From the NCBI GenBank assembly GCA_017617545.1, contig JAFZVZ010000038.1:1-41350 (forward strand): DNA of 41,350 bases, given 5' to 3'. The notes under the pieces are model-generated. The model worked only from the letters and a program-made list of their open reading frames with translations. It did no database searches and had not been told where the DNA came from. Shown here one piece after another: positions 1,385 through 36,792 of this stretch. The stretch comes from Lachnospiraceae bacterium (GTDB taxonomy: Bacteria > Bacillota > Clostridia > Lachnospirales > Lachnospiraceae). Within the stretch, counting starts at the first letter, position 1, and every line of letters begins with the position of its first letter. Both the position numbers and the translations under genes were made by a program.

Positions 1385-2578
1385 ATGTCGGAAAATTCTT
1401 CGAATTCGACAGCCGAGGCTGCTGTTGAAGCTAAGGCTGTGCAGAAGAAACCGTTGACACGGTTCGGAGAGTTTGAACTGCTGAAGGCGTTGGCGATCCT
1501 CGGACTTCCCGCGGTACACCTGATGGAGGAGGCTCTTGAGGCAGGGTTTGCCAGCCCCGGGCTTTTAAAGTTCGGCACCGGTATCATCGGTCTGTGCGCG
1601 TTCGGTCCTTCGGTGTTCATGATCTGTATGGGCTTCGGGATCGGCGGCGGCAGAACCTCCCCAAAGCATATCCGCGCGAACGGAATTCAGTTCCTGCTGA
1701 TCGGTGCGCTGCTCAACATTTTCCGATGGCTCATCCCGGGAATTATCAAGGCTTCGGTGCTTGGCACATCGCTCATCAATGACCTCGAGGTCTGCCTGCA
1801 GTCGGATATTTACTATTTTACAGGCTTGTACTTTATCCTGTATTCCTTCCTGAAACAGTGGAATATCAAGACGCCGGGTGTGGTCATGACAAGCGTGCTG
1901 ATGCTGACGGCCAACACGCTGCTTACACCGTTCACAAGCGCGTATATCCACGACGAAACGCTTGTTTCGCTTGTCGGAAACATTGTCTATGTAAACGAGA
2001 CGAGTTGTTTCCCGCTGCTTTCCTGGGCGATCTTCCCGAGTGTCGGCGTGCTTCTCGGCGAGATCTTGAAGAAGACGGACGAGGCGCAGAGGGAAAATAT
2101 CATGCGGCGCATGTTTGACTTTTCCGCGGCGCTGCTGGCATCGTTTGTGGTGTTCCTCTGGGATTATGACATCGACATTGTCAAGGCTGTGGTGTCGCCC
2201 GCAAACGACTATATCACCGACCTTCCGAACGTGATCCTTCTGCTCAGCCTTGCGCTGTTTTTGGTGGCGCTCACCTACAATCTGTGCAAGCTGATCGGAG
2301 CCTCCGGATTCATGAAGTTCATGCTCCGGATCTCCGCCTTTATCATTCCGTTCTACCTGCTGCAGTGGATCATCGTTTCGTGGATCGTTTACGGACTGTC
2401 GATCGCACGCGCGCCGGCGGAGTGCATCTCTCTCTGGATCTATTTCGTGTGTGTCGCGGCCATCACGGCAATCTGTATTCTTGTGACCAACAAGTACGGA
2501 ATGAAGATCATGAAGATCCTGCTGAAGATCACAAGCTTCAAGAAAAAGAAGAAAAAAACGGTGGCAAAGGAGGCGTGA
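1385..2578 (+). CDS. Multi-pass membrane protein, probable acyltransferase of the acyltransferase-3/DUF1624-like fold
   Basis: A 397-aa protein with a short hydrophilic Ala/Glu/Lys N-terminus and about ten hydrophobic segments, ending in a very basic cytoplasmic tail (KKKKKK near the C-terminus). The first helix reads ELLKALAILGLPAVHLMEE. The placement of a His at the end of the first membrane helix recalls transmembrane acyltransferases (acyltransferase 3, heparan-glucosaminide N-acetyltransferase type), though the usual Arg/Asp pair of those families is not obvious. It is directly followed by an acyl-adenylating ligase and an acyl carrier protein, so a role as the membrane enzyme that passes an acyl group from ACP to an extracytoplasmic acceptor is a reasonable inference. 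The start at 1385 is chosen over 1352 from the RBS. The family call is tentative. Confidence 0.55.
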   Translation: MSENSSNSTAEAAVEAKAVQKKPLTRFGEFELLKALAILGLPAVHLMEEALEAGFASPGLLKFGTGIIGLCAFGPSVFMICMGFGIGGGRTSPKHIRANGIQFLLIGALLNIFRWLIPGIIKASVLGTSLINDLEVCLQSDIYYFTGLYFILYSFLKQWNIKTPGVVMTSVLMLTANTLLTPFTSAYIHDETLVSLVGNIVYVNETSCFPLLSWAIFPSVGVLLGEILKKTDEAQRENIMRRMFDFSAALLASFVVFLWDYDIDIVKAVVSPANDYITDLPNVILLLSLALFLVALTYNLCKLIGASGFMKFMLRISAFIIPFYLLQWIIVSWIVYGLSIARAPAECISLWIYFVCVAAITAICILVTNKYGMKIMKILLKITSFKKKKKKTVAKEA

Positions 2579-2581
2579 CCT

Positions 2582-4174
2582 ATGGGGAAAAAGAATCCGG
2601 TGTATATGGATGTTGAGCCTGTGAGCAGTCTTGCGGAAATGATCGAGCGCAAGGCGAAGGACATGCCCGAGGGAGTTGCCTTCCGGTTCACCAAGGGCAG
2701 GGACCAGATTGAAAATAAGACCTATGCCGATACATACATGGATGTCCGAAAGGCCGCTTCCCGGATTGAGGAGCGCTTCGGAACAGGGCAGCACATCGCC
2801 GTCTTAGGTGAGAACTCATACGAGTGGCTGGTGGCATTTTTCGCGGTAATGACCTCGGGAAATGTTGCTGTGCCGATCGATAAAGAGCTGCCCGCAGCGG
2901 AGGTCGCGGCGCTGATCGCTGCGGCGGATGCAAAGGCAATCTTTATTTCCAAGACCTACAGTGACCTCGCGGAGGGAATCGATGGACTGCAGCTTACCAC
3001 GCTGAAGGCGCTGCTGGAGGATTCGGCGAGCGGTGACGAAGCCTATGAGCTGAAGAAAACGGGGAAGGATGAGCTTGCGGCGATCTTCTTTACCTCAGGC
3101 ACATCGGGAACCAGCAAGGGTGTTATGCTGAGTCACGGAAATCTGGCGGCGGAAGTGTCCGACTGCTGCCGCATGTTCGATACGGAGGGCATCCATATGA
3201 CGCTTTCCGTTCTGCCGTTTCATCACACCTTCGGCATGAGCGTGGCAATCCTGATGCCGTATTTCTTAGGATTTCCGATCTTTCTGAACAAGAGTTTAAA
3301 GCGCCTTACGGATGATATTCAGAAGGCGAAGCCCGATCTGATGATGCTGGTGCCGCTGTTCATCGAGACATTTTACAAGCGGCTCATGGAAGGCATCGAG
3401 AAGAGCGGCAACGCGAAGAAGGTTCAGAAGGGCATCAAGGTAAGCCGTTTTCTTCGGAAAATCGGCATCGACAAGCGTCGCGAGTATTTTGCGGAGATCC
3501 TCAAGTCCTTCGGCGGTAACCTTAGGATGATCATCTCCGGCGGTGCGTACCTCGATCCGATGTATGTGACGGCATTCCGCGATTTCGGCGTCGAGATTTA
3601 TAACGGGTACGGCGCGACGGAGTGTTCCCCGTGTATCGCCTTCAACCGCCCGCATTACAATAAGGACGGCAGCGTCGGACAGCTGATCCCCGGGACGGAG
3701 GCGAGAGCTACGGAGGACGGAGAGGTTCAGATTAAGGGACCGACCGTGATGCAGGGCTATTACAACAATCCCGAGGCCACGGCGGAAACACTGCAGGACG
3801 GCTGGTATTCCACCGGCGACCTGGGCTATGTGGACAAGAACGGCTACCTGTTCCTCACCGGGCGGAAGAAGAACCTGATCATCCTGAGCAACGGTGAGAA
3901 TATTTCTCCGGAGGAACTGGAAAATGACTTCCGCAAGGATCCCGGCGTCAACGAGGTCCTGGTCTATGATCGGAAGAACGCGATCGTTGCGGAGATCTAT
4001 CCCGAGGAGGCGTTCATGGGCAACGAGGACTACTTCAACGAGCTGATGAAGAAGGTCAACGAGGGACGACCGATCTACAAGCAGGTTGCGAAGGTAGTGC
4101 TTCGCAGCGAGGATTTCATTCGAAATACAACCAAGAAGGTTGTACGATACAAGAACATACCAAAGGAGGAGTAA
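2582..4174 (+). CDS. AMP-forming acyl ligase (ANL superfamily), probably acyl-ACP ligase
   Basis: A 530-aa adenylate-forming enzyme that activates a carboxylic acid as acyl-AMP and transfers it to a thiol, either the phosphopantetheine of ACP or CoA. Visible motifs are the Ser/Thr/Gly-rich phosphate loop FTSGTSGTSKG (about 171-181), the adenine-binding YGATECSP, the YSTGDLGYVDKNG hinge region with its conserved Asp, and the C-terminal GRKKNLIILSNGENISPEE stretch. There is no fused acyltransferase domain. The gene begins 3 bp after the stop of the membrane protein with AAAGGAGG in the end of that gene, and the next start codon follows its stop by 4 bp, so the three are almost certainly translated together. 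The adjacent dedicated carrier protein suggests ACP rather than CoA as acceptor. Substrate chain length cannot be told. Confidence 0.88.
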   Translation: MGKKNPVYMDVEPVSSLAEMIERKAKDMPEGVAFRFTKGRDQIENKTYADTYMDVRKAASRIEERFGTGQHIAVLGENSYEWLVAFFAVMTSGNVAVPIDKELPAAEVAALIAAADAKAIFISKTYSDLAEGIDGLQLTTLKALLEDSASGDEAYELKKTGKDELAAIFFTSGTSGTSKGVMLSHGNLAAEVSDCCRMFDTEGIHMTLSVLPFHHTFGMSVAILMPYFLGFPIFLNKSLKRLTDDIQKAKPDLMMLVPLFIETFYKRLMEGIEKSGNAKKVQKGIKVSRFLRKIGIDKRREYFAEILKSFGGNLRMIISGGAYLDPMYVTAFRDFGVEIYNGYGATECSPCIAFNRPHYNKDGSVGQLIPGTEARATEDGEVQIKGPTVMQGYYNNPEATAETLQDGWYSTGDLGYVDKNGYLFLTGRKKNLIILSNGENISPEELENDFRKDPGVNEVLVYDRKNAIVAEIYPEEAFMGNEDYFNELMKKVNEGRPIYKQVAKVVLRSEDFIRNTTKKVVRYKNIPKEE

Positions 4175-5773: not shown

Positions 5774-5931
5774 GGGGTTCCTCCGAAAAAACAGTGTATC
5801 TTTCTGCGGGTGTGCAGAACACATTTTCCGTGTAATACGGTAACAAATTAACCATCGGATTTCAAGCGGAAAATGAGTGAAAACAGTTCTTACATTTTTG
5901 TAATAAATCGAATTAAGGAGTTTTTGTATGG

Positions 5932-8900: not shown

Positions 8901-9257
8901 ATCAGCCATTACAGAATGATTTTGATCGACGGCGAGGAGAAAGCGCTGCCTGCAAAATCCGGCAGTACGATCATCACGTTCGATGCGGATACGCTGAATT
9001 TACTCAGCGTCGGAACACATATCGTAACAGTTGTGTTTGATGACTGGAAGGATGAACTGACGTTAGTGATCAAGGAAGCGGAGGCACCTGCACCTGTTGA
9101 GCCGGAACCCACACCGACGGTTGCTCCTGCGGTGAAACCTGTCGACACACCGACCACCGGAGACTCCGAAATGATGACGATTTGGATCCTTCTGGCGATT
9201 GTTGCAGCGGGAAGCATCGGCGGACTTGCTGCGATGAAGAAGCAGAAGCGAGCATGA
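5997..9257 (+). CDS. Large cell-wall-anchored protein with two dockerin-like and two cohesin-like (beta-sandwich) modules
   Basis: A 1086-aa secreted protein. A signal peptide (LVWMLCVVLMVAMNMPMVSA) is followed by a dockerin-type module (about 40-100: GDANLNGYVDMGDAVLI ... NADVTHDGNIKEDDAMLI, two EF-hand-like loops). Next come a beta-sandwich module (about 121-271), a second dockerin-like module (about 274-341: GDANLDGHVDVLDAS ... NADVDKDGKVDSADAS) and a second beta-sandwich (about 366-515). The sandwiches are duplicates, each ending G-T-Y-T-V-G-F-S-x-E-C-R-V...I-Y-S-T-x-F-T-P; I read them as cohesin-like, tentatively. Later parts are an InlB-like repeat (about 668-738), a Cys-pair-rich repeat region (about 835-935), a Pro-rich stalk, and a C-terminal TPTTGD sortase-like motif with membrane helix and KKQKR tail. 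The 5' half is visibly AT-richer than the 3' half. Likely role: surface adhesion or scaffold; substrate unknown. Confidence 0.78.
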   Translation: MSKIGKKALVWMLCVVLMVAMNMPMVSAAEDKKVDETPFGDANLNGYVDMGDAVLISRFAAEDAEAKISAQGQINADVTHDGNIKEDDAMLIRKYLAYLLTSDELTDRVTGGNAGGENADVKFSFVSDNNESTVHVTSGTGKTLRVPVLIDAGENAITALDVQFHCSDGIRITAIERDMSNEAAFIYRGPMIVNTELLRANTFTKSISSSGDNDGVVPNKGKAVFFLTVEVPETTEPGTYTVGFSSECRVYKGCSGEIYSTTFTPLTVVVERSVWGDANLDGHVDVLDASYILKDYAMHASATGTFLTEPQQTINADVDKDGKVDSADASYVAEYLVGLTLPDKVSPKGTPPELITVGKDGGNNPNILFSLVDNQQADTITIEYGKNATIDISVQLYSGQVDISCMNVQFLGSKGITITSGAKGIILNTSATGRFRNYSHTWNPDNLRVAVYCSESYSFSAENGEPVFTMQVSVPDNLPEGTYTVGFSDECRVHIGLTENIYSTAFTPYTIVVKKKQEATPEAVFTATGSDTATLTNVAAGMTYSIDGGAAAEITGDTVELTNLEECTISVIQPSKSAVTADSDAQNITVTKAAKPDLKATQPATINEKGSIPTTTSHQKSTDGINWTNCDGAWENLDEGTYYVRVAPSGTSLASDAQEISITTKRYTVSFVDEDGTELQSGPVAAGETPAYTGETPVKAPTVEKLRTFAGWTLPNSSEIFKTLPAVTDEATYVAAYTESDRDYTDPVWVWTGYTEAKATFTAVDDAAFTQEVTATDDAITNVVTGQPTCTGKGERTYTATITFLGGQYTDTVTEEIAPIAHTFNQEVVNAKYLKSEATCTTAAVYYKSCVCGEKGTETFESGKPLGHDYREVAGTAKAATCKEAGKEADKKCTRCGDVITGAEIAKTTVHQWKAATGYAPKTCEICGLQEGDVIRYLPAEGNTIEHVKGSTESKTVTYHRSENDNDCISHYRMILIDGEEKALPAKSGSTIITFDADTLNLLSVGTHIVTVVFDDWKDELTLVIKEAEAPAPVEPEPTPTVAPAVKPVDTPTTGDSEMMTIWILLAIVAAGSIGGLAAMKKQKRA

Positions 9258-10013: not shown

Positions 10014-10070
10014 TCTTTCGGAAAATGCACCTGCAACAGAAAAACGATCGCAGTATAGGAACATAAAACA

Positions 10071-11560: not shown

Positions 11561-14148
11561 TGAGAGATCAGAACCGGACAATCGAACTGCTGGCACCGGC
11601 CGGCTCGTACGACGCGCTGCTTGCGGTCATCGAAGCGGGCTGTGACGCGGTGTACATCGGCGGAACGAGGTTCGGCGCGCGTGCGTACGCGGACAATCCC
11701 GAGGAGGAGCTTCTTCTCAAGGGCATTGACCATGCGCACATGCGAGGTGTGAAGGTCTATATGACGGTCAACACGCTTCTGAAGCAGACGGAGACGAAGG
11801 AGCTGCTTCAGTACCTGCTTCCGTACTACGAGGCGGGGCTGGATGCGGTGATCGTACAGGACTTCGGGGTGATGCGGCTGATCGCGGAGCATTTTCCGTC
11901 GCTGCCGATCCATGCGAGCACACAGATGACGATCACGGACGCTGACGCGGTGAAGCTTCTGCCGGAGCAGGTCAACCGGATCGTGCCCGCACGGGAGTTG
12001 TCGCATACGGAGATCGACGCGCTGTCGAAGGCTACGGACCGGGAGCTTGAGATCTTTGTGCACGGCGCCCTGTGCTATTGCTACTCGGGACAGTGCCTGT
12101 TCTCGTCGATGATCGGCGGGAGAAGCGGCAACCGCGGTCGTTGCGCGCAGCCGTGCCGCAAGCGGTATCGCTACCGCGAGGGGGCAGCGAAGCATGATGA
12201 GGCGGATGCATACGGCTTTCTGCTGAGCCCGAAGGATCAGTGTCTGTTGCCGAGGCTTCACGAGCTGATCGCCGCAGGCGCGGATTCGCTGAAGATCGAA
12301 GGAAGAATGAAGAAACCGGAGTATGCGGCAGGCGTCACGGCGATCTATCGCCGCTGGCTCGACCGGCTCGCGGAGCTCGGGTTTGACGAATATGAGAGGT
12401 ATCTCGCGGCTCACGCGCAGGAGATGGCGGACGATGTCGCGGCGCTCGCGGAGATTTACAACCGCGGAGGCTTTTGCGACGGGTACGTGTTCGGAACCAA
12501 GGGCAAGGATATGCTCTGCGCGGACCGTCCGAACCACACCGGCGTTGTCGTCGGGCACGGAACGGTCGAGGACGGTCCGAAGCCGGCGGCGCACATCACC
12601 TACCGCGAGGAGATCGGACCGGAGGAGGTCCTCGAGCTTCGTTCGCCGACGGGATTTGTCTGCGGCGATGTGACGACGCCGAAGGACATGACGCGGTTCG
12701 ATCCGGCTAAGCCGGTGGCGATCCACTGGAATCCCGCCTTTGGGCGGATGCCGAAGACGGTGGAGGTGTTCCGCACGAAGAACGGCACACTTCTCAACGA
12801 GATCCGCGAGACGTTTCTTTTGACCCGGCGGGATATCCCCGTGTGCGGCACGTTCCGCGCGGCAGCGGGTGAACCGATCCGTCTCACGGTTACGGACGAG
12901 CAGGGGCGCGCATGCGTGACGGTTGAGGGAGATGTGCCTGAGAGCGCGATGCAGAGCGCGACGGATGCGGAGCAGGTGCTCGCGAAGCTTCGGCGCACGG
13001 GCGGCTCAGGGTACGAGTGGAGCCAGCTGTCCGCCGATGTCGCGGACGGATTGTTCATCCCCGTATCGAAGCTGAACGAGCTTCGCCGCGAGGCGCTTGC
13101 GGCATACGAGGAAGCCGTGGTGCGCGAGTGGAGACGGAGCGTTCCGCAGTGGGCGAGAGATGAAGAGGAAGAATTGATCACGAAGCCCGTGAAACCGGAG
13201 ACGGAAACGGAAGAGCCGGAGACGGTTTCGTATGAGGAAGAACAGATATCGGATATAGAAGATCCGGATACGGACAATGTTGTGATCGACGAGAGCAGCA
13301 TCTCCGACCTTCATTGTGCGGTGAGCGTGATGACACCGGAGCAGACGGAGGCAGCGGTGCGCGGCAAGGTCGTGACGGATCTGTTTGTGGATATGGAGGG
13401 CGCCTACGAAGGATGCCTGCACATTTTACGAGCCGAGAGAGGGTTCGGCGACGCAAAGCATCTGGCGGTGAGCATCGTGCTGCCGCGCGTCGGCAAGGGC
13501 GAGAGAAGGAAGCAGATGCTCGCGGAGGTTGAGCGGCTGATCGGGGATCCGCTGGTAGGCGGTATCGTTGTTCGTACGCCGGATCAGCTGGCGATGGCGG
13601 AGACATGGAAACAAAGACGCCCCGAACTTGCGGTCCACGCGGACAGTACGCTCTACCTGATGAATGAAGAGGCAGCCAAATGGCTGCGGGAGCATGGCGT
13701 AGAGCACGGCACGGTGTCCGTGGAGCTTCGGAGAAGCGAGATCACGCAGGAGATGGCGAGCGGCTCGTGGATCACGGTGTACGAGCGCTGTCCTCTGATG
13801 GTTTCCGAGCAGTGCGTGCATCGCACGGTGTTCGGCACCGGCAGCTGCGGAAAGAACGCTGCGGGAATACTGACGGACATGGAAGGCAAGGAGATGCCTG
13901 TGCAGAGCGTGTGCAGGTATTGCCATTCCGTTTTATACAATGCGCATGTCACCTCGCTTCTGACGGTGGCGGGTGAGGTGTTGCAGAAGGAGCCATACGG
14001 GGTGCGCGTCAACTGCCAGGCGGAGACGCGGCGCGAGCTTGACCTCGTGCTGCGAACGCTTGCGGATGCGCTTTCGGGCAAGGTCGTTTCAGAGCCTCTT
14101 GCGGGAGTGCAGTACACGAAGGGGCACTGGAGGCGCGGCGTCGAGTAA
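11560..14148 (+). CDS. Peptidase U32 family protein with DUF3656-type C-terminus
   Basis: An 862-aa U32-family protein. The N-terminal TIM-barrel-like U32 domain shows ELLAPAGSYDALLAVIEAGCDAVYIGG and the Cys-rich core FVHGALCYCYSGQCLFSS...GNRGRCAQPCRKRY. Despite the peptidase name, characterised members (TrhP, RlhA, UbiU/V) are Fe-S proteins needed for prephenate-dependent hydroxylation of tRNA, rRNA or ubiquinone precursors; tRNA hydroxylation is the likeliest role here. The C-terminal half resembles the DUF3656 extension. An acidic Glu/Thr/Pro-rich linker (about 535-585) separates two parts. A further Cys cluster near the C-terminus (CVHRTVFGTGSCGKN and CRYCHS) is consistent with the family. 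The start codon overlaps the zapA stop (TAATG). Confidence 0.88.
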   Translation: MRDQNRTIELLAPAGSYDALLAVIEAGCDAVYIGGTRFGARAYADNPEEELLLKGIDHAHMRGVKVYMTVNTLLKQTETKELLQYLLPYYEAGLDAVIVQDFGVMRLIAEHFPSLPIHASTQMTITDADAVKLLPEQVNRIVPARELSHTEIDALSKATDRELEIFVHGALCYCYSGQCLFSSMIGGRSGNRGRCAQPCRKRYRYREGAAKHDEADAYGFLLSPKDQCLLPRLHELIAAGADSLKIEGRMKKPEYAAGVTAIYRRWLDRLAELGFDEYERYLAAHAQEMADDVAALAEIYNRGGFCDGYVFGTKGKDMLCADRPNHTGVVVGHGTVEDGPKPAAHITYREEIGPEEVLELRSPTGFVCGDVTTPKDMTRFDPAKPVAIHWNPAFGRMPKTVEVFRTKNGTLLNEIRETFLLTRRDIPVCGTFRAAAGEPIRLTVTDEQGRACVTVEGDVPESAMQSATDAEQVLAKLRRTGGSGYEWSQLSADVADGLFIPVSKLNELRREALAAYEEAVVREWRRSVPQWARDEEEELITKPVKPETETEEPETVSYEEEQISDIEDPDTDNVVIDESSISDLHCAVSVMTPEQTEAAVRGKVVTDLFVDMEGAYEGCLHILRAERGFGDAKHLAVSIVLPRVGKGERRKQMLAEVERLIGDPLVGGIVVRTPDQLAMAETWKQRRPELAVHADSTLYLMNEEAAKWLREHGVEHGTVSVELRRSEITQEMASGSWITVYERCPLMVSEQCVHRTVFGTGSCGKNAAGILTDMEGKEMPVQSVCRYCHSVLYNAHVTSLLTVAGEVLQKEPYGVRVNCQAETRRELDLVLRTLADALSGKVVSEPLAGVQYTKGHWRRGVE

Positions 14149-14204: not shown

Positions 14205-14759
14205 ATGAGTGACTTGCTGGATCAGGCGATAGCGATAGCGAAGGATGCGCACAAGGATCAGAAGGACAAGGCAAACCGACCTTATTTTCTGCATCCCCAG
14301 ACGGTCGCCTCGTTCGTGGACACGGAGGAGGAGAAGATCGTCGCGTATCTGCACGACGTGATGGAGGATCATCCGGATTACATGACGGAGAGAGGATTTC
14401 GCGAGCTCTTCGGCGACCGGGTGACGGACGCGCTTTTATTGCTTCGGCACGACCGTGACGATACCTACGCGGAGTACATCGAGAAGATCCGCCGCTCCAA
14501 CAATCTTCTGGCGATCCGCGTGAAGCTTGCGGACCTGCGCCACAACACGGATGTTTCGCGAGGGATCACGATCACCGATCCGGAGGAGCGCGACCGGTTT
14601 TACGCCAAGAGAAACGAGAAGGTGCAGACGTGTTACATGCCGGCCATCCGCAGTTTGAGCGAGCAGCTGCGCGTGATCGATGAGGCGGTTGCCGCCGAAG
14701 GCGTCGGGCACGCGGAGAATGGCATGTCCGCATACACGTCTTCGGAAAATGCCGAATAA
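14205..14759 (+). CDS. Stand-alone HD-domain phosphohydrolase, RelA/SpoT-hydrolase-like
   Basis: A 184-aa single-domain HD hydrolase. Metal-binding motifs are FLHPQTVAS (His), IVAYLHDVMEDH (HD pair) and VKLADLRHNTD (Asp), in the order of the RelA/SpoT hydrolase domain. No synthetase domain is present, so it could be a small alarmone hydrolase or a related nucleotide phosphohydrolase; sequence alone does not settle the substrate. AAAGGAGAAAGGA precedes the ATG. It lies 56 bp after the U32 gene in the same direction and may be cotranscribed. Confidence 0.72.
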   Translation: MSDLLDQAIAIAKDAHKDQKDKANRPYFLHPQTVASFVDTEEEKIVAYLHDVMEDHPDYMTERGFRELFGDRVTDALLLLRHDRDDTYAEYIEKIRRSNNLLAIRVKLADLRHNTDVSRGITITDPEERDRFYAKRNEKVQTCYMPAIRSLSEQLRVIDEAVAAEGVGHAENGMSAYTSSENAE

Positions 14760-16085: not shown

Positions 16086-17306
16086 ATGGGAGACGAACGA
16101 TACAATGTGACACGCACCGTGACGCTCAAAAAGGGCGAGGGCAGAAGCCTCAAAGCCGGCGGACTGTGGGTGTATGACAATGAGATCGCCTCGGTGATCG
16201 GCGGCGGGGAGAACGGCGCGCTCGCGGCGGTGAAGGACTTCGACGGTTATCCGATGGGCATCGGCGTTTACAACGAGAACTCGAAGATCCGCGTGAGGAT
16301 GCTCACAAGGCGCAAGGGATCCGCTGTGACAGAGGAACTGCTGAAGGAACGTGTGAAGGCAGCGTGGGTGTACCGCACGAAGACGGTGGACACGTCGTCG
16401 TGCCGTGTCATCTTCGGCGAGGCGGACTGGCTGCCCGGCATCGTCGTCGACAAATTCTCCGACATCCTCGTGATCCAGTCGCTGTCCTTAGGCATGGACC
16501 GCTTCAAGAATGTTATCCTTGATACGCTTAAAGAGCTTCTGGCAGCGGACGGCATGCCCGTGCGCGGGATCTACGAGCGCAGCGACGCGAGAGAGCGCGA
16601 GCGCGAGGGCATGGAGCGCTTCAAGGGCTTCATCGGCGATGAGTTTGATCCGATCGTGGAGATTACGGAAAATGGTGTCCGCTACGAGGTGGATGTCGCG
16701 CAGGGGCAGAAGACGGGGTTCTTCCTTGATCAGAAGTACAACCGTCTGGCAATCCAGAAGCTTTGCAGGGGAGCCAGGGTGCTTGACTGCTTCACGCACA
16801 CCGGCTCGTTCGCGCTCAACGCGGGACTGGCCGGAGCGTCTGAGGTGCTCGGCGTGGACGCCTCTGAGCTTGCCATCCGGCAGGCGGAGCGGAACGCGGA
16901 GCTGAACGGCTTGTCGGAGCGGGTGCATTTTCAGGTCGAGGACGTGTTTGACCTTCTGCCGAAGCTGGAGGCGGAGGGAGAGAAGTACGATGTCGTCATC
17001 CTCGATCCGCCCGCGTTCACCAAATCGAGAGTAGCGACGAAGCAGGCGATCAAGGGATACCGCGAGATCAATATGCGCGGACTGAAGCTTGTGAAGGACG
17101 GAGGGTTCCTCGCGACATGCTCGTGTTCGCACTTCATGACGCCCGAGTTGTTCACGGAGACGATCGCGCAGGCAGCGGCGAGCACGCACAAGCGGCTTCG
17201 CCAGGTGGAATACCGCACGCAGTCACCGGATCATCCGATCCTGTGGGCAGCGGACGAGTCGTACTACCTGAAGTTCTACATTTTCCAGGTGTGCGAAGAG
17301 AAATAG
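16086..17306 (+). CDS. rlmI: Class I rRNA methyltransferase of the RlmI type (PUA plus SAM domain)
   Basis: A 406-aa protein of the COG1092 family; characterised members such as E. coli RlmI methylate 23S rRNA cytosine-1962 at C5. An N-terminal PUA-like RNA-binding domain (about 1-75, including RSLKAGGLWVYDNEIASV) is followed by the SAM-binding fold. QGQKTGFFLDQKYNR, LDCFTHTGSFALNAGLAGA (motif I), ILDPPAFTKSR (catalytic motif IV) and CSCSHFM (motif VI Cys) are all visible. Which rRNA base is modified here is inferred from the family only. Confidence 0.88.
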   Translation: MGDERYNVTRTVTLKKGEGRSLKAGGLWVYDNEIASVIGGGENGALAAVKDFDGYPMGIGVYNENSKIRVRMLTRRKGSAVTEELLKERVKAAWVYRTKTVDTSSCRVIFGEADWLPGIVVDKFSDILVIQSLSLGMDRFKNVILDTLKELLAADGMPVRGIYERSDAREREREGMERFKGFIGDEFDPIVEITENGVRYEVDVAQGQKTGFFLDQKYNRLAIQKLCRGARVLDCFTHTGSFALNAGLAGASEVLGVDASELAIRQAERNAELNGLSERVHFQVEDVFDLLPKLEAEGEKYDVVILDPPAFTKSRVATKQAIKGYREINMRGLKLVKDGGFLATCSCSHFMTPELFTETIAQAAASTHKRLRQVEYRTQSPDHPILWAADESYYLKFYIFQVCEEK

Positions 17307-19650: not shown

Positions 19651-21714
19651 ATGGCGAATTCCGAAGAGAACAAGGCTGCTTCCGCTGAGGGCGGAAACAA
19701 CCAGACGAAGCGCCTGGTCATCATCGCGATCGCTCTGATGGCGGTTGTGATCATCGGCCTGACCATCGCGCTCATCAACGCGAACAAGAAGAACAATAAA
19801 AACCAGGACGATCCGGTACCGACACCTAACAGTGTCAGTGAGGCGACGCCGACGGAAGCACCGAACGGTACGCCTACGGAGACGGGTACACCCACGCCCA
19901 CAGGCGAGGCCAAGGACACGCCCACGCCTGCGGGAGACGTGACGGGAACGCCCGCGCCGACCGAGGCAGGCAAGACGCCGACGCCGACGGAAGCGGGCAA
20001 GGGAACACCGACACCGTCCGCATCGCCCACACCGAAGCCCGAGGAGATCGACGGGTATCTCGTGGAGTACTCGGCCGGCAACACGTGGAACGACGGCGGC
20101 GTCACGATGATGAACCTGGAGTTCGGCATCCGCAACAACGCGAAGGAAGCGATCAGCGGCGGCTGGACGCTCGTTGTCGAGATCGAGGGGCTCGCGAAGG
20201 CTGACGGCTGGAACGGAACATTTTCCGTAAAGGGTGACACCCTGACGATCAAGAGCGCGAACTATAACGGAGATATCGCCAAGGGCGCGACACAGGTTGT
20301 CGGCTGCAACCTGGGCATCAAGAAGGATGCGCTTAAGGTTGTCAAGGCTACGCTGAACGGTGTGGCCTGCACGGTGCGCGCGGGCGTTGTCGACCAGAAC
20401 CGTCAGAACAACAACCAGGGCAACAACGGAAACGGCAACAACGGCGGCAATGACGTCGATGTCGAGGAGATGCTCAAGCGTTCGAAAAATGCCGTACAGG
20501 GCGATGACTGGCTCCATACGGACGGAACGCGCATCCTGGACAAGGACGGCAAGGAAGTATGGCTCACCGGTCTGAACTGGTTTGGCTATAATACCGGAAC
20601 CAACCTTTTTGACGGACTTTGGAACTCGAAGCTGGAGCCGACCGTGAAGGCGATCGCCGACCACGGCTTCAACCTGATCCGCGTGCCGATCTCCGCGGAG
20701 CTGATCAACCAGTGGGCGGACGGCGTGTATCCGACCGCCAACTACAACCATGCCTACAACGAGGGTCTCAACTCGATGAACAGCCTCGAGATCTTCGATT
20801 ATTTCCTAAAGCTCGCGGAGGCCAATGGCATCAAGGTGATGCCCGATATCCACAGCGCCGAGACCAACGCTTCCGGCCATAACGTGAACCTGTGGTACAC
20901 GCAGAAGGTGACCGAGGAAGACTGGCTCAAGGCACTCGAGTGGATGGCAAAGCGCTACAAGGACAATGACACGATCATCGCGTACGACCTGAAGAACGAG
21001 CCTCACGGCAAGCCGTACGAGAAGGACGGCGCGGCAATCTGGAACGATTCGAAGCAGCCGAACAACTGGAAGTACGCAGCGGAGAAGGCGGCGGCCCGCA
21101 TCCTTGCGGTCAACCCGAACGTATTGATCCTTGTCGAGGGTATCGAGATCTTCCCGAAGAACCTTGAGACCAACGCGGACTTCCACTCGACAGATGAGAA
21201 GGACTACGATTTCAACTGGTGGGGCGGCAACCTGCGAGGCGTTGCGAAGTACCCGGTCGACCTCGGCAAGTACAAGGACAAGCTCGTGTACTCGCCTCAC
21301 GATTACGGTCCGACCGTCTATCAGCAGCCGTGGTTCAAGGGCACGTTCGACTATGACAGCCTGATGAAGGATTGCTGGCACGACAACTGGTTCTTCATCT
21401 ACGAGGAGAAGATCGCTCCTCTGCTGATCGGTGAGTGGGGCGGCTTCATGACGGAGCCGAACATCAGCTGGATGAAGCTGATGCGCCAGCTGATCAAGAC
21501 ATATCACCTGAACCACACCTTCTGGTGCCTGAACGCCAACTCGGGAGACACCGGCGGACTGCTGCTCGACGATTTTACGACGTGGGATGCCGAAAAATAC
21601 GAGTTCGTGAAGGATGTCCTCTGGCAGGAGAACGGCAAGTTCGTCGGACTTGACCATGCGATCCCGCTCGGCGACAACGGCATCACGCTCAAGGATGCCA
21701 AGGGGATCAAGTAA
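19651..21714 (+). CDS. Membrane-anchored GH5 endoglucanase with CBM2-like module
   Basis: A 687-aa glycoside hydrolase. An uncleaved-looking N-terminal membrane anchor (about 21-45, LVIIAIALMAVVIIGLTIAL) is followed by a Thr/Pro/Gly linker. Next is a carbohydrate-binding module resembling CBM2 (about 130-250, GGWTLVVEIEG), an Asn/Gly linker, and a GH5 catalytic domain (about 285-680). The acid/base Glu450 is in DLKNEPHG and the nucleophile Glu595 in LIGEWGG, both canonical. GH5 enzymes with this layout cleave beta-1,4-glucans such as cellulose by a retaining mechanism; the subfamily is not determinable here. GGGAGG (19640-19645) selects the ATG at 19651 over an in-frame ATG at 19591. It sits between two envelope genes, consistent with a surface location. 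Confidence 0.9.
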   Translation: MANSEENKAASAEGGNNQTKRLVIIAIALMAVVIIGLTIALINANKKNNKNQDDPVPTPNSVSEATPTEAPNGTPTETGTPTPTGEAKDTPTPAGDVTGTPAPTEAGKTPTPTEAGKGTPTPSASPTPKPEEIDGYLVEYSAGNTWNDGGVTMMNLEFGIRNNAKEAISGGWTLVVEIEGLAKADGWNGTFSVKGDTLTIKSANYNGDIAKGATQVVGCNLGIKKDALKVVKATLNGVACTVRAGVVDQNRQNNNQGNNGNGNNGGNDVDVEEMLKRSKNAVQGDDWLHTDGTRILDKDGKEVWLTGLNWFGYNTGTNLFDGLWNSKLEPTVKAIADHGFNLIRVPISAELINQWADGVYPTANYNHAYNEGLNSMNSLEIFDYFLKLAEANGIKVMPDIHSAETNASGHNVNLWYTQKVTEEDWLKALEWMAKRYKDNDTIIAYDLKNEPHGKPYEKDGAAIWNDSKQPNNWKYAAEKAAARILAVNPNVLILVEGIEIFPKNLETNADFHSTDEKDYDFNWWGGNLRGVAKYPVDLGKYKDKLVYSPHDYGPTVYQQPWFKGTFDYDSLMKDCWHDNWFFIYEEKIAPLLIGEWGGFMTEPNISWMKLMRQLIKTYHLNHTFWCLNANSGDTGGLLLDDFTTWDAEKYEFVKDVLWQENGKFVGLDHAIPLGDNGITLKDAKGIK

Positions 21715-21744: not shown

Positions 21745-21768
21745 CGGAAAATGAGGGTTCATTTTCCG
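21745..21768 (+). repeat. Perfect inverted pair of the CATTTTCCG word
   Basis: CGGAAAATGA (21745-21754) and TCATTTTCCG (21759-21768) form a 10-bp stem with a GGGT loop, 30 bp after the GH5 stop. It is not a classical terminator (AT-rich stem, no T run). The word is over-represented across the window. Confidence 0.7.
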
Positions 21769-27511: not shown

Positions 27512-27534
27512 TGTTTCAAAACAACATTTTCCGA

Positions 27535-27855
27535 TTAATTATCTTCCTCGCCGGATTTCTCCGCGGCAGCCTCAGCCATGCGCTTCAAAACAAGCGCGTA
27601 GCCGTCGTTGCCGTAGGTGAGCGAGCGGTTCACGCGGCTGATCGTAGCCGTGGAAGCGCCGGTCTTCTCGGCGATATCGAGATATGTTTTCTTCTGCGTG
27701 AGCATGTCGGCGACCTCGAACCGCTGCGAGATGGCAACGAGCTCCTGGATCGTGCAGACATCCTCAAAGAACTGATAGCATTCCTCCACTGTCTTCAGCG
27801 TGAGGATTGCGGAAAATAACTGATTGACTGCGGGGGTATGTATATCTTTACCCAT
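27535..27855 (-). CDS. yerC: YerC/YecD-family TrpR-like DNA-binding protein
   Basis: A 106-aa protein of the YerC/YecD family related to the Trp repressor. The helix-turn-helix is visible in YLDIAEKTGASTATISRVNRSL, with the upstream helices CTIQELVAISQRFEVADML. Length is as expected. GGAGG precedes the ATG at 27855 and excludes the longer frame to 27948. In Firmicutes yerC is often near pcrA; here the DUF1836 gene lies between them. Regulatory targets are not known from sequence. Confidence 0.88.
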   Translation of the reverse strand: MGKDIHTPAVNQLFSAILTLKTVEECYQFFEDVCTIQELVAISQRFEVADMLTQKKTYLDIAEKTGASTATISRVNRSLTYGNDGYALVLKRMAEAAAEKSGEEDN

Positions 27856-30224: not shown

Positions 30225-31649
30225 ATGAGAAATGAATTTCTGGCAGTATTCAGCGGGTTTCCGGACCATCATTTTTCGAAAGAGATCACGGACCGGCTGC
30301 GCGAGGAACTGACGGAGAGAAAGAGCATCGTGTTTATCACCGCGTGTCCGCTTGACTACGCGCAAAACGACGATGACTGCGACGGCATGCACGAGATGTT
30401 CGTTGAGCAGGGACTGGGGTTTGAAAAGCACTGCGTGATCGATCAGCGCACCGAGCCGGAGACGGCGAAGGAATCAGTGGAAACTGCGGACTGCATTTTC
30501 CTCATGGGAGGAGGCGTCTGTGAGGAACAGCTTGCGCTGATCCGCGAGAAGGGTTGTTATGACGCGCTTCTTGACTGCCATGCCGCGATCTTCGGTGTGA
30601 GCGCCGGCTCGATGAACATGGCGCGCAAGACGGTTGATTTCTTCGAGTCCATGGAGGCCTTCGACGGGCTTGGACTTACGAACATTACGGTGAGCTGCCA
30701 TCATGACCCGGAGGACACATGGCGCTGCGAGCAGACCCTTCGGATGTCTGAGGACCGCGTTGTGTATGCCATGGAGGACATGAGCGCGTTTTTCATCAAG
30801 AGGGGACGGATCGACACCGTCGGGACGATCTACCGCATGGAGAACAGGGAACTTCAGCCGCTCACGGAGGAAGGCATCAGGGAGCTGGAGCAGGATGAGT
30901 TCCGCAGAGTGTTCGACACGATCCCGGATCAGTTTGACCGTTTCCGCCCGCGGTACAGCGAGGAGCTGTTCGCGTACTTAAACGCGGAGGCGGGGATCGG
31001 ACCCGGCAAGCGCGTTCTGGAGCTCGGACCGGGGACGGGGCAGGCGACGGAGCCGGTGCTTCGGACCGGCTGCGAATACCACGCCATCGAACTCGGCGAG
31101 CATCTGTATCGGAAAATGAAGGAGAAGTACGGAAGACTACCGAACTTCAACATCGTAAACGACGACTTCATCACGCACGATTTCGGCGACATGAAGTTTG
31201 ACATGATCTATTCGGCGGCCACGATCCAGTGGATCCCCGAAGCGGTGGCGTATACCAAGACCTTCGATCTTCTGAAGCCGGGCGGTACGCTTGCGATGAT
31301 GCTGACAAGAGCGGAATACAAGTCCGACAACGAGGCACTGTACGAGAAGATCCAGGCGCTGTACGACCGCTACTACAAGCCCGATATCCCGTATGTGCAC
31401 GGTGGCTTCCGATACACCGCTGCGCCGGAGTACGGCTACACGGAGGTGGAGCGACACGAGTTTACGGGGCAGCGGGTGTTCACCGCCGACGAGTACGTCG
31501 CATTTTCCGGAACACACAGCGATCATATCGTGATCCCCGAGCCGATGCGGACAGAGTTCTTCGAAGAGATGCGGAACGCGGTGCTGGAGGCCGGAGACCG
31601 GATTGTATTCAACGATACGTATGTGCTGTTTATAACGAAAAAACCTTGA
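30225..31649 (+). CDS. Fusion of peptidase S51-like domain and SAM methyltransferase
   Basis: A 474-aa two-domain protein. The N-terminal part (about 1-215) is a peptidase S51/dipeptidase E-type fold, which is related to class I glutamine amidotransferases: LMGGGVCEEQLALI and the nucleophile elbow FGVSAGSMNMA with Ser126. The C-terminal part (about 230-474) is a class I methyltransferase with motif I VLELGPGTGQ (264-273), acidic AIELGEHL, and LLKPGGTLAMML; it resembles the Methyltransf_11/25 group. GGGGGAG precedes the ATG. The reading frame crosses the domain boundary without interruption, so the fusion is real in this sequence. Substrates of either domain are unknown; a product of the peptidase step might be methylated, which is speculative. 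Confidence 0.8.
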   Translation: MRNEFLAVFSGFPDHHFSKEITDRLREELTERKSIVFITACPLDYAQNDDDCDGMHEMFVEQGLGFEKHCVIDQRTEPETAKESVETADCIFLMGGGVCEEQLALIREKGCYDALLDCHAAIFGVSAGSMNMARKTVDFFESMEAFDGLGLTNITVSCHHDPEDTWRCEQTLRMSEDRVVYAMEDMSAFFIKRGRIDTVGTIYRMENRELQPLTEEGIRELEQDEFRRVFDTIPDQFDRFRPRYSEELFAYLNAEAGIGPGKRVLELGPGTGQATEPVLRTGCEYHAIELGEHLYRKMKEKYGRLPNFNIVNDDFITHDFGDMKFDMIYSAATIQWIPEAVAYTKTFDLLKPGGTLAMMLTRAEYKSDNEALYEKIQALYDRYYKPDIPYVHGGFRYTAAPEYGYTEVERHEFTGQRVFTADEYVAFSGTHSDHIVIPEPMRTEFFEEMRNAVLEAGDRIVFNDTYVLFITKKP

Positions 31650-31667: not shown

Positions 31668-32486
31668 ATGGAAGTACTGTGTTCAACCGGCGCGCTGATC
31701 GGGCGCCCGAACGGCCGCAACCCGCGGCTTTTGGAGGACCTGACGAAGAAACTGACGTGTGATGGACTCGAGTTCATGATGTACAGCACATGGTATGACG
31801 ACGTGGACGAGATCACGGAGTATGTGCAGAGCCTCGGACTGCATATTCCCGTGTACCATTGCCAGAAGACGGTCGGCGAGGAACTGACGAAGGGCGATTT
31901 CGCGGAGGCGAACCGCCGTATGGAGATCAACGCCCGGCAGGCTGAGGCGATCGGTGCGCGGAAAATGGTGTTCCACCTCTGGAACGGCGAGATCTCGGAT
32001 TCCGCGTTTGAGAACAATCTAAAGGGGTACGGAGACCTTCGAAAGATCACGGCGGATCACGGCGTGGACCTTTTGGTGGAAAACGTCGTCTGCAACAAGG
32101 AGAACCCCCTTCTTCACTGGAAGCAGCTTGCGGACCGCTATGCGGAACCGCACTTTATCTTCGACACGAAGATGGCTGCGTTCCATGATCAGATTGATGC
32201 ATTTTGCGAGGGCGAGTACGCGTGGGCGTGGAAGGACGGGCTTGTGCGCCACTACCACATCAATGACTACGCGGGCGGCTATATGGACTGGACTGCGCTC
32301 AGAACGCTTCCAATCGGGTCGGGACATATTGATTTTCCGAAGTTTTTTGAGTTCGTCAAGGGCACGGGGTACGACGGCACATTCACCCTCGAATCGACGG
32401 CGTTTGACAAGACCGGCACGGTTGACACGGAGATGCTCAACCGGCAGGTGGCGTACGTGCGCAAGCAGTGGCAAGGGAACGAGTGA
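31668..32486 (+). CDS. Sugar phosphate isomerase/epimerase-like TIM barrel
   Basis: A 272-aa protein of the xylose-isomerase-like / AP-endonuclease-2 superfamily. Visible features are VLCSTGALIGRPNGRN at the start and LLVENVVCNKENPLLHW with the metal-binding Glu. FIFDTKMAAFHDQ (Asp/His), HYHINDYAGG and FTLESTAF (final Glu) are further metal ligands typical of the fold. Members isomerise or epimerise sugars or cyclitols; the substrate cannot be assigned. It follows the S51-methyltransferase gene by 18 bp with AGGAG before its ATG, so the two are probably cotranscribed. Confidence 0.8.
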   Translation: MEVLCSTGALIGRPNGRNPRLLEDLTKKLTCDGLEFMMYSTWYDDVDEITEYVQSLGLHIPVYHCQKTVGEELTKGDFAEANRRMEINARQAEAIGARKMVFHLWNGEISDSAFENNLKGYGDLRKITADHGVDLLVENVVCNKENPLLHWKQLADRYAEPHFIFDTKMAAFHDQIDAFCEGEYAWAWKDGLVRHYHINDYAGGYMDWTALRTLPIGSGHIDFPKFFEFVKGTGYDGTFTLESTAFDKTGTVDTEMLNRQVAYVRKQWQGNE

Positions 32487-32582
32487 GACGCTGGATACAA
32501 ATGGTGAATACTGTTGATTTTCCGCTCGAAAAATGAGTGTAATCTGTCTGTTATGTCAATAGATATTTTTGTTCAACGATGA

Positions 32583-33409: not shown

Positions 33410-33446
33410 AAGTGAATATTTGACATATTTTCCGTCAGAGAACATA

Positions 33447-34584: not shown

Positions 34585-34696
34585 CCTGCGGTGTCGGTTT
34601 AGCGGCAGCCTCGTCTGTGACAGCGGTTATCCGGCAGACAGTCTGCGGCAGCGGCTGTACCGCGAAGATGGTTAAGAATTTTACGTAAGAAACATA

Positions 34697-34729
34697 ACGC
34701 GGCGGTGGAGTTGTCTTCCGCCGCGTTTT
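34697..34729 (+). terminator. Terminator of the DUF3592 gene
   Basis: A perfect 9-bp stem (ACGCGGCGG 34697-34705, CCGCCGCGT 34718-34726) is followed by TTT. Confidence 0.8.
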
Positions 34730-34792
34730 GTGAAGAAGGATAACGGGAAACCGTGACAAAGGAGAAGATTAAGAATACGGAGGGGTACGATC

Positions 34793-35941
34793 ATGAATGA
34801 AAGAAAGCTTACGGAATATCTGGATTCCCTGCTGAAGGCAGGGCTTCCGTCCTTTGACTGCATGGTCAGCAAAGACCATGAGTTACTGTACCGCCACATG
34901 GGCGGCTTTGCGGACGCAGGAAAGACCGAGCCGATCCGCACGGATCAGAAATATCTGATGTTTTCCATGACGAAGATCCAGACCATGACGGCTGTGATGC
35001 AGCTTGTTGAGCAGGGAAAGCTGTCTTTGGAGGATGAGGTCGCCAAGTACCTTCCCGCGTACCGAAACCTTACGGTGCGGGAGAAGGATGCCGACGGCAA
35101 GGAGCGGATCGTACCGGCCGACAAGCCGCTTACAATGCTTCATCTTGTGACCATGCAATCGGGCCTGAACTACGACCTTCACCGGCCCGGCGTGGACCGG
35201 TTCCTCGCAGAGCACGGCGGTGACGGGACCACGAGAGAGCTTGTGAACGCCATGGCGGAGTCGCCCCTTGACTTCCATCCGGGGACTCATTTTCAGTACA
35301 GCTTAAGCCACGACGTGGCGGCAGCGGTTGTCGAGGTCGTGTCCGGGAAGAGATTTTCCGAGTATCTCGCGGAAAATGTGTGGACCCCCTTGGGGATGTC
35401 CTCCACATGCTTTTGCAAAGGCATGAATGAGGGAGTCGAGGGACTTGCGCAGCAGTATGTGTGCGATAACGGAGACATTGCGCAGATCCGTCCCATGGAG
35501 CCCTCCTGCGATTACCAGCTGGCGCCCGGTTATGAGAGCGGCGGCGCGGGGCTTATGAGCACGACGGAGGATTATGCGAAGCTGGCGGATGCCCTTGCCT
35601 GCGGCGGGACCGGAGCTGACGGAGCGCAGATTCTTAGGCCTGAGACGGTGGCTGAGTTTTCCGTCAACCGCATCAGCGGGGCTTCCCGGGACGAGCTTGT
35701 GAAAAATATGGGACGCCGCGGCTATGGCTACGGCATCGGTATGCAGGTGCTTCTTGAGCCCGGGAGACTCGGCACGAAGGCTCCGGCGGGGATCTTCGGC
35801 TGGGACGGCGCGGCGGGAAGCCTCGCGATCATGGATCCGGTCAACCGTATGTCGCTTGTGTTCGCCATGCATGTGAGAAACTGCGGGTACGCGTACGGCG
35901 TGATCCACCCGGCGCTTCGCGACCTGATGTTTGAGGATTGA
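34793..35941 (+). CDS. Beta-lactamase-fold serine hydrolase (peptidase S12 type)
   Basis: A 382-aa class C beta-lactamase-like protein (family of esterases, D-aminopeptidases and penicillin-binding-like hydrolases). The nucleophile Ser58 is in FSMTKIQT (S-x-x-K), the Tyr motif in FQYSLSHDV (Tyr-Ser, with Leu instead of the usual Asn) and the third motif in FGWDGAAGS. No signal peptide is seen, so it is probably cytoplasmic and more likely an esterase or peptidase than a resistance enzyme. GGAGGGG precedes the ATG. Confidence 0.85.
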   Translation: MNERKLTEYLDSLLKAGLPSFDCMVSKDHELLYRHMGGFADAGKTEPIRTDQKYLMFSMTKIQTMTAVMQLVEQGKLSLEDEVAKYLPAYRNLTVREKDADGKERIVPADKPLTMLHLVTMQSGLNYDLHRPGVDRFLAEHGGDGTTRELVNAMAESPLDFHPGTHFQYSLSHDVAAAVVEVVSGKRFSEYLAENVWTPLGMSSTCFCKGMNEGVEGLAQQYVCDNGDIAQIRPMEPSCDYQLAPGYESGGAGLMSTTEDYAKLADALACGGTGADGAQILRPETVAEFSVNRISGASRDELVKNMGRRGYGYGIGMQVLLEPGRLGTKAPAGIFGWDGAAGSLAIMDPVNRMSLVFAMHVRNCGYAYGVIHPALRDLMFED

Positions 35942-35976
35942 TCATTAGCGGTGTCTTTTGGAAGGAGTTTGAAAGA

Positions 35977-36792
35977 ATGTCGATTCGTATGCTCGCCGTC
36001 GACTTGGACGGCACGTTGTTGACCGATGACAAGAGGATCAGTGACACCAACCGGGAAGCGCTTACGCGGATCACGGCGGAGGGCGTCCGTGTGATCCTTT
36101 CCACCGGAAGGGCGTGGCCCGGGGCAAAGGGCTTTGCCGCCGAACTGGGGCTGGGACTTCCCTTGATCACCTCCAACGGGGCGATGATCGTTGACAGCGC
36201 GACCGAGGAAATCCTGTATCAGCGGGACATGGAGACGGAGGCTGCATTTTCCGTCATCGAGGAGGGCGTCAGAAGAGGAACGAGCCAGATCATCTGGAGC
36301 CGGAACCGTCTGTACGGGCTGCCCGTGAATGAACGGCTGCAGGACTACGGGCGGCGCTTCGGACGGATGACGCCGCAGCCGGCGCCGCTTGCAATGCTGG
36401 AGGAGGACGGGATATCCAAGGTGCTCTGGTACGACACGGAGGAAAACATCGCGCAGTGGGAGAAGGAGCTGGCTCCGAGGGAGGACAGAAGCACGGAGCG
36501 GTTCCCGAACACCAAGGTTGTCACGTCGACGCCGACATTTCTTGAGTTTTTCCACCGCGGCGTTTCCAAGGCGACGGCCATCGCGACGGTTGCCGCGATG
36601 TACGGCATCGCAAAGGAGGAGATTGCGGCCATCGGTGACGCGGACAATGATCTTCCGATGCTAGCGGAAGCGGGACTGGCCATCGCGATGGGCAACGGCA
36701 CGGAGCGTGTCAAGGCTGCCGCGGACAGGATCACCCTTGATAACGAGCACGACGGCGTCGCGTACGCGGTGGAGCATTTTCTTGCGGAGTGA
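35977..36792 (+). CDS. Cof-type HAD-IIB phosphatase
   Basis: A 271-aa haloacid-dehalogenase phosphatase. Motif I AVDLDGTLLTDD has the nucleophilic Asp, followed by motif II VILSTGRAWPG, the IIB cap in the middle, motif III Lys in GVSKATAI, and motif IV AIGDADNDLPMLAEAG. These enzymes dephosphorylate sugar phosphates and related metabolites with broad specificity. GAAGGAG selects the ATG at 35977; an in-frame ATG at 35938 overlaps the end of the preceding gene. Confidence 0.9.
   Translation: MSIRMLAVDLDGTLLTDDKRISDTNREALTRITAEGVRVILSTGRAWPGAKGFAAELGLGLPLITSNGAMIVDSATEEILYQRDMETEAAFSVIEEGVRRGTSQIIWSRNRLYGLPVNERLQDYGRRFGRMTPQPAPLAMLEEDGISKVLWYDTEENIAQWEKELAPREDRSTERFPNTKVVTSTPTFLEFFHRGVSKATAIATVAAMYGIAKEEIAAIGDADNDLPMLAEAGLAIAMGNGTERVKAAADRITLDNEHDGVAYAVEHFLAE

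Follow-up and report, generated by a model that had tools for sequence, protein, structure and literature searches.

A frequent nine-base word in a Lachnospiraceae genus and its probable role as a DNA uptake sequence

Copies of the word in the window and the draft genome

We analyzed the DNA word CATTTTCCG, which recurs on both strands of a 41,350-nucleotide stretch (hereafter the window, meaning that whole stretch) from a Lachnospiraceae bacterium. The window is G000:C14:1-41350, where G numbers denote genomes, C numbers the contigs of a genome (of G000 if none is given) and L numbers sequence stretches, and G000 is a draft genome of 2,732,263 bp in 45 contigs. The closest named records for one window protein came from Lachnoclostridium sp. 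UBA1175 (87% identity), RGIG8155 from water-buffalo rumen (84%), and RUG13295 (76%). All are Lachnospiraceae, so the original prediction, made from the window's letters, was correct in placing the host among the clostridia.

All 16 copies of CATTTTCCG reported by that prediction were recovered at their positions, against a mean of 0.53 and a maximum of 3 in dinucleotide shuffles of the window (n = 100). Within genes, forward-strand copies lie at 1717..1725 (gene 1385-2578), 11890..11898 (gene 11560-14148, U32 peptidase-like), 20219..20227 (gene 19651-21714, with a GH5 cellulase domain), 31501..31509 (gene 30225-31649, methyltransferase-like), and 36245..36253 (gene 35977-36792). Reverse-strand copies lie at 14743..14751 (gene 14205-14759), 16666..16674 (gene 16086-17306, rRNA methyltransferase-like), 31110..31118 (also in gene 30225-31649), 31959..31967 (gene 31668-32486, xylose isomerase-like TIM barrel), and 35370..35378 (gene 34793-35941, beta-lactamase/esterase-like). 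The copy at 20219 is kept in L009, whereas the aligned positions of L010 and L011 lack it. Outside genes, the forward copy at 5822..5830, between divergent genes, is the left arm of an inverted pair whose right arm is the reverse copy at 5867..5875, and a reverse copy at 10019..10027 lies directly past gene 9402-10013. A hairpin at 21745-21768 is formed by a reverse copy directly past the GH5 cellulase gene (left arm, 21745..21753) and a forward copy (right arm, 21760..21768), and a further forward copy lies between convergent genes (27525..27533).

About nine additional copies with another front base had also been proposed; the eight-base ATTTTCCG occurs 25 times in the window (1.74 expected), which is nine beyond the 16. 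These variants, in which the front base is not C, lie on the forward strand at 1294..1301, 32517..32524, and 33427..33434 (all intergenic), 17931..17938 (gene 17608-19500), 32332..32339 (gene 31668-32486), and 35353..35360 (gene 34793-35941, inverted relative to the 35370 copy), and on the reverse strand at 1389..1396 (gene 1385-2578), 3455..3462 (gene 2582-4174), and 27810..27817 (gene 27535-27855, kept in L009). The 25 ATTTTCCG copies occupy both orientations and both called genes (16) and non-coding DNA (9), in agreement with the earlier description. The genes described as free of the word were free of it: neither a copy nor a single ATTTTHCG was found in the dockerin gene (5997-9257), pcrA (23942-26500), or the hydrogenase-type genes (the NuoF-like gene 38276-40192 and the next gene, 40207-41349). 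The dockerin gene of the window and C31:32850-36047 both encode large dockerin-bearing proteins without a motif site, and G000 also encodes a GH5 cellulase with CBM2 (window 19651-21714).

The top-ranked 8-mer of the window was CATTTTCC (25 vs 2.4 under an order-3 Markov model). We extended the analysis to 398 kb of G000 beyond the window, giving 439,189 bp with the window included (439 kb; 341 genes called by our own script), and some scans covered 537,892 bp (538 kb). In the 439 kb, which are a part of the genome, CATTTTCCG occurred 140 times against 27.3 expected from an order-4 Markov model, the null used for this sample, and was thus well away from Markov expectation. The whole draft holds 1,005 copies, 513 forward and 492 reverse, compared with 7 of the word read backwards, which served as our genome-wide control (the reversed word). 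Contigs are arbitrarily oriented, so this genome-wide strand count carries no polarity information. Across the 538 kb, sites matching ATTTT[CAT]CG occurred at a density of about 1 per kb. Origin from a dispersed repeat, a transposon end, or a long repeat was rejected, as copies share no longer flanks and the word persists after repeated 16-mers are masked (164 vs 30.8).

The top-ranked 8-, 9-, 10-, and 11-mers of the 439 kb were all pieces of CATTTTCCG with its flank, and the extended form CATTTTCCGAA occurred 36 times against 1.5 expected. The one-letter neighbours ATTTTACG and ATTTTTCG were likewise in excess. When single letters were changed, ATTTT and the C at position 8 proved strict, and positions 1, 7, and 9 tolerant; the excess of one-off variants is graded around this strict core, as in uptake sequences. 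The 3' flank is A-rich, with A at positions 10 (48%), 11 (46%), and 14 (54%) and G at position 12 (39%), and is near background past position 14. The full preference of the word is about CATTTTCCGAAGAA. Outside the motif, GATCCCGA/TCGGGATC was also over-represented in the 439 kb (98 vs 38.9).

Coding sequence was evaluated by shuffling synonymous codons inside each gene. Of the 140 copies in 439 kb, 85 were genic against 5.7 expected, a 15-fold excess, and rather than following one reading frame they filled all six phase and orientation classes in excess (26 vs 1.0, 37 vs 2.5, and four classes of 5 or 6 vs 0.3-1.1). The other 55 copies lay in spacers, where Markov models of spacer DNA predict 1.9-2.3, so that CATTTTCCG density was 1.05 per kb in intergenic and 0.22 per kb in coding DNA. 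By spacer type, ATTTTCCG was densest between divergent genes (2.83 per kb), followed by tandem (1.41) and convergent (0.93) spacers. Pairs of ATTTTCCG less than 60 bp apart were inverted in 19 of 22 cases. The 21745/21760 pair after the GH5 cellulase gene forms a hairpin with a 10-bp stem (-12.4 kcal/mol, z -3.0), and the 5822/5867 pair belongs to a larger RNA fold (-16.2 kcal/mol, z -2.25). A perfect palindrome, CATTTTCCCGGAAAATG, was also found between divergent genes at about 12690-12707 of L105 (C7, about 32.69 kb); it holds the sole CATTTTCCNGGAAAATG of the 538 kb.

Several regions are nearly devoid of ATTTT[CAT]CG sites. Two sites fall within the 13.1 kb of the type IV pilus operon (C7:44.2-57.3 kb). 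Six genomes carry this operon at a single locus, and these loci together contain 14 sites in 77.9 kb, compared with 37 in 31.7 kb of flanking DNA from five of those six; the pilus operon of G007, left out of the pool as it is in two pieces and the genome has another dialect, has 0 sites in 12.7 kb. The desert at C31:31.0-42.8 kb (four of nine genes scanned) contains a dockerin protein, GAPDH, phosphoglycerate mutase, and one protein without a family, and that at C31:4.1-10.5 kb (two of three genes scanned) a response regulator and a Listeria-Bacteroides-repeat protein. Four genes scanned in a third desert, at C7:66-73 kb, were of capsule or polysaccharide type (GC 0.42 at 65-70 kb). Deserts therefore cover pilus, surface-protein, dockerin, and capsule genes, but glycolysis genes as well. 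One phage integrase was found in G000, too little mobile DNA to compare site density.

Abundance, dialects, and turnover among relatives

Counts of CATTTTCCG across 21 congeners ranged from 63 to 1,060. In a genus tree built from ten proteins of 20 species (G020 and G021 were omitted because loci were lacking), ten species formed a word-rich clade with 181-408 copies per Mb and 100/100 support, and a second clade had 96-162 copies per Mb; densities for genomes other than G000 rest on rounded genome sizes. G006, G015, and G017 had 28-46 copies per Mb, with 115 per Mb in their sister G012. Mixed Lachnospiraceae loci held 23 copies in 1.14 Mb, or about 20 per Mb, so G006 and G017 are near background. 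The z scores from synonymous shuffling were 46-48 in G000, 13 to 17 in G009, G007, and G008, and at most 10 in G006 and G017, the two word-poor genomes where unrelated single words also reach 4-5-fold and z 9-10. A de novo search for a dialect in G006 and G017 found none. Before repeat masking, longer dispersed repeats were seen in G006 (L116-L122; pieces CCCGCTGAGGC and CAATGGATGG) and G017 (L123-L130; pieces CCGCAGTGCGA and CAGTGCGATCC).

The preferred word shifts between sister species. In G007, which belongs to the rich clade, the leading word was ATTTGCCG (63 vs 12.7), followed by ATTTTACG (31 vs 6.0); ATTTTCCG was at 29 vs 13.4. This dialect extends on the 5' side, with G at -2 (84%) and at -5 (66%). 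Genome-wide, CATTTGCCG occurred 445 times in G013, 431 in G007, 354 in G016, 287 in G008, and 129 in G000, and 41 times in each of G006 and G017, below their reversed controls.

We also surveyed 299 Lachnospiraceae genomes, one per genus except that G002 was added beside G000. In five other genera CATTTTCCG exceeded both 200 copies and eight times the reversed count: G112 (401/15), G238 (340/5), G128 (337/20), G315 (233/19), and G343 (207/24). Between 62 and 100 kb of each was sampled, and the dialect words of other genera were CATTGNCC, CATTT[TC]CC, and TCATTTCC. G112 favours CATTGACC (22/3.0), CATTGCCC (24/4.1), and CATTGGCC (17/2.8), with CATTNNCC at 138/40 overall, and G128 favours CATTTTCC and CATTTCCC, with CATTNNCC at 98/36. 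For comparison, CATTNNCC overall was 80/45 in G315, 63/52 in G259, 22/25 in G340, and 623/546 in the pooled mixed loci, and four scrambled cores reached at most 1.4-fold in every genome tested. The leading word of G238 was TCATTTCC (34/5.2). As a family-wide detector CATTTTCCG proved imperfect, given that G343 has 207 copies yet little local excess. Dialects follow phylogeny, and in the genus as well as in G112 and G128 they are arranged around the shared CATTNNCC core.

Individual sites were compared by alignment. In six relatives with the same dialect (G002, G005, G009, G011, G014, and G019), 33 of 79 aligned ATTTTCCG sites were identical, where the background from other 8-mers of equal A+T content is 17-23% and one G000 site may count in several relatives. 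G009 alone retains 17 of 32. G007 retains 6 of 49, below its 18% background, and 5 of the remaining 43 read ATTTGCCG. Elsewhere the sites kept were 2/29 in G008, 1/10 in G006, 0/2 in G017, 2/2 in L009, and 0/3 in L010; a separate pass over the three nearest named records, with three aligned sites each, gave 2/3 for L009, 0/3 for L010, and 0/3 for L011. Sites are favoured as a class, while single sites come and go.

Uptake genes and the explanation of the word

Genes for DNA uptake are widespread in these bacteria. ComEC was found in 58 of 61 genomes, and all 22 genus members have a short frame of ComEA size that matches HHH_3 (matches in long frames are other proteins); in G000 the two genes lie on C31, separated by 3.4 kb. 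PilB, PilT, pilins, PilD, and PilM are encoded in the type IV pilus operon on C7. PilB was detected at E < 1e-130 in all 16 genus members of at least 86% completeness, including the word-poor G006 and G017. The operon has five N_methyl pilins (C7, near 48430, 49040, 53107, 55911, and 56434). Three of the five were scanned, and among the matches listed there was one ComGE-like below the cut-off and no ComP-named family. PilM_2 was uninformative as a family-wide pilus marker, matching 231 of 299 genomes, many weakly; the weak matches are presumably FtsA/DnaK-like proteins. Outside the genus, a strong PilB-sized match was present in G112, G128, and G315 and absent from G259, G340, and G343.

A second, orphan PilT (PilT2) is encoded away from the pilus operon, in G000 at C6:45111-46166 (L231:2112-3170; 352 residues, NCBIfam pilT_fam 435.7 bits). 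We had taken this third ATPase for ComGA, wrongly, as it is a PilT. Orthologues with 60-97% identity were found in 13 of 15 congeners searched by protein, and identity was 94-97% in the eight rich-clade relatives searched. The two congeners where this search found no PilT2, G006 and G015, returned only the operon PilT (51% identity). For G017, outside the protein search, the strong ATPase matches were PilB, one PilT, and a TadA-sized one, with no PilT2 listed. G016 and G018-G021 have a PilT-sized ATPase away from PilB according to a match list without identity check. The three poorest species are those lacking PilT2. A review (PMC6370729) covers, in the part drawn on here, the harm that PilT loss does to transformation, and it also names PilT2; for PilU, a related second ATPase, the review reports that one species shows a strong effect and another shows none.

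We consider it likely that CATTTTCCG serves as a DNA uptake sequence and has accumulated through biased natural transformation, like the DNA uptake sequences (DUS) of neisserial bacteria and the uptake signal sequences (USS) of Haemophilus. We favour this reading because papers on DUS and USS describe the same signature: copies that lie both in genes and in spacers without a bias in orientation, an excess of near-variants, and accumulation through biased uptake, termed molecular drive (PMC1939737, in part). Inverted close pairs and lineage dialects fit uptake sequences. The original prediction had called this a selected DNA word, and among the options it offered the evidence favours an uptake sequence. 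Free DNA would be bound at the word by a receptor on the cell surface, for which a minor pilin of the type IV pilus is the most likely candidate, and pilus retraction with the participation of PilT2 would draw the DNA across the wall towards ComEA and ComEC. Recombination of word-bearing DNA would then raise word frequency by molecular drive wherever protein or regulatory constraint permits. A shift in the taste of the receptor could spread a new dialect, and the word would decay where uptake is lost.

A number of observations weigh against this explanation. Pilus, ComEA, and ComEC genes are present in word-poor species too, and the presence of a type IV pilus fails as a simple correlate within the genus. 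The loss of PilT2 is one event in one clade, G015 is 80% complete, and G015 keeps some excess without PilT2 (CATTTTCCG 96 vs 13 reversed; CATTTGCCG 143 vs 41). G238 bears the word but has no PilB-type ATPase, only the TadA type; a Tad/Flp pilus, of the kind reviewed for Micrococcus luteus (PMC6370729), might do uptake there. Its leading word also has the two halves one base closer together, with a CATTNNCC excess of 66/44 only. G343 shows little local excess (68/53) and is not convincing, and the cases of G315 and G004 are weak, being close to shuffle-test noise. ATTTTCCG in G017 reaches 27/8.2 by shuffling, which is inside that noise, and shows no excess by Markov model (30 vs 29). G033 has PilB yet only 127 CATTTTCCG copies vs 31 reversed, and G016, whose ComEC reads as broken, with stops inside (G016:C57:53707-54488), still has 435 copies. 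ComEC of G015 also reads as broken, in two pieces (G015:C63:24535-25331); these breaks could be competence decay or assembly errors, and all genomes compared are drafts. Finally, the first 200 kb of C31 show a mild strand bias of ATTTTCCG (68/45).

That strand excess, the high copy number, and the intragenic copies speak for a Chi- or KOPS-type signal in recombination or segregation. Signals of this type follow replication with a strong strand bias, however, and we disfavour them because bias is weak on these 200 kb of steady positive GC skew, where CATTTTCCG itself is 33 forward and 25 reverse. On four other contigs ATTTTCCG was 21/26 (C5), 16/16 (C7), 11/11 (C4), and 18/10 (C6), close pairs are inverted, and strong polarity of the Chi/KOPS kind was not seen in these five partly sampled contigs, which makes such a signal very unlikely. 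The binding site of an abundant chromosome-organising protein (a nucleoid protein, condensin loader, or nucleoid-occlusion factor), selected for chromosomal spread, is unlikely but deserves more weight. Apart from a few deserts, sites recur about once per kb throughout the 538 kb, and the tolerant positions resemble a protein-binding profile, yet an important protein would have to change rapidly to explain both the dialect change between sister species and the near-complete loss of the word in G006 and G017, and the deserts lie at pilus, surface, and capsule genes. Alternatively, the word might be kept numerous to mark the chromosome as self for a defence or modification system, as a methylation or BREX-like target without palindromic symmetry, with dialects arising from specificity-subunit swaps. 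This reading would account for a non-palindromic word on both strands with dialects by lineage, and methylation-dependent uptake exists in Campylobacter. Against it, recognition here is graded and extends into a soft flank, when enzymes of this kind have sharp targets, and genomes usually avoid restriction targets and do not enrich them; we regard it as quite improbable, somewhat more so than a chromosome organiser.

A transcription-factor operator or a terminator element was also considered. The CodY box, which we take to be the palindrome AATTTTCWGAAAATT, resembles CATTTTCCG, density is highest between divergent genes (2.83 per kb), and there are hairpins at 21745-21768 and 5822-5875. But 85 of 140 copies are genic, AATTTTC[AT]GAAAATT has 0 copies in the 538 kb and TTTTC[AT]GAAAA has 1, and a regulator site is disfavoured because of the coding excess in all frames and the lack of a CodY-like box in 538 kb. 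The CodY box was accordingly rejected (0 copies in 537,892 bp), as was a terminator-only role as main cause, since convergent spacers have the lowest density, although some inverted pairs may still act as terminators. Overall we hold an operator or terminator to be slightly less credible than a Chi/KOPS signal. Hardly tenable at all is the view that the word is a functionless product of codon-pair or mutational bias. Codon-pair effects are real, in that the shuffle null leaves a 4-5-fold excess for unrelated words in word-poor genomes, but z is 46-48 in G000 and no higher than 10 in G006 and G017, all six frame classes are in excess, and the intergenic excess is stronger; on these grounds a codon-pair artefact was rejected for G000.

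Implications and comparison with known systems

A broader proposal, which we hold with somewhat less confidence than the uptake role itself but still favour, is that the word represents a third, independently evolved uptake-sequence system. It would operate in monoderm bacteria, as the Lachnospiraceae are taken to be, and extend over several genera, with dialects of one word marking mating groups of gut and rumen anaerobes, transformation via type IV pili and PilT2, and loss of the word upon loss of uptake. The dialects would comprise CATTTTCCGAA, GCATTTGCCG, and CATTGNCC around the CATTNNCC core, plus the closer-spaced TCATTTCC. If this is true, sex with sequence selectivity evolved anew in bacteria that lack an outer membrane, and gut and rumen anaerobes would be naturally transformable, so that placing the right word on donor DNA would offer a route to genetic access. 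A genus with intact, shifted, and lost dialects would also be a natural experiment on the origin, drift, and decay of the word and on the pilin that reads it.

Among the open-access matches listed, titles and the starts of abstracts reported no uptake word in archaea, Lachnospiraceae, Clostridia, Firmicutes, or Gram-positives; literature containing both 'DNA uptake sequence' and 'Lachnospiraceae' had titles on other matters, and the matches listed for the letters CATTTTCCG had titles on unrelated matters. In the passages we drew on, uptake words are placed in Neisseriaceae and Pasteurellaceae (PMC5031613, PMC1939737, PMC3630211), and minor pilins are the known or predicted receptors of DUS and USS (PMC12616744, PMC6370729). 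One of these papers describes DUS as under-represented in the accessory genome and among surface genes that are hypervariable (PMC5031613).

The word resembles the Neisseriaceae DUS in its many copies within and between genes, its dialects around a short core, and the accompanying type IV pilus genes; DUS dialects around a short invariant core match phylogeny (PMC3630211, in part). It differs in having the CATTNNCC core rather than a CTG-based one, in its Lachnospiraceae host, in that no ComP was identified, and in being known here from sequence alone. With the Pasteurellaceae USS, for which two dialects adhering to phylogeny are described (PMC12616744, in part), it shares dialects along phylogeny. 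The USS itself (AAGTGCGGT; PMC5031613, in part) is an unrelated word in unrelated bacteria, and the A-rich 3' flank in G000 and the G-containing 5' flank in G007 set the present word further apart. Like Chi and KOPS words it is short, frequent, and intragenic, but without strong strand polarity here. Cyanobacteria carry HIP1, a highly iterated palindrome in coding DNA. CATTTTCCG is likewise a short word highly iterated across coding DNA, but unlike HIP1 it is non-palindromic and comes in graded dialects.

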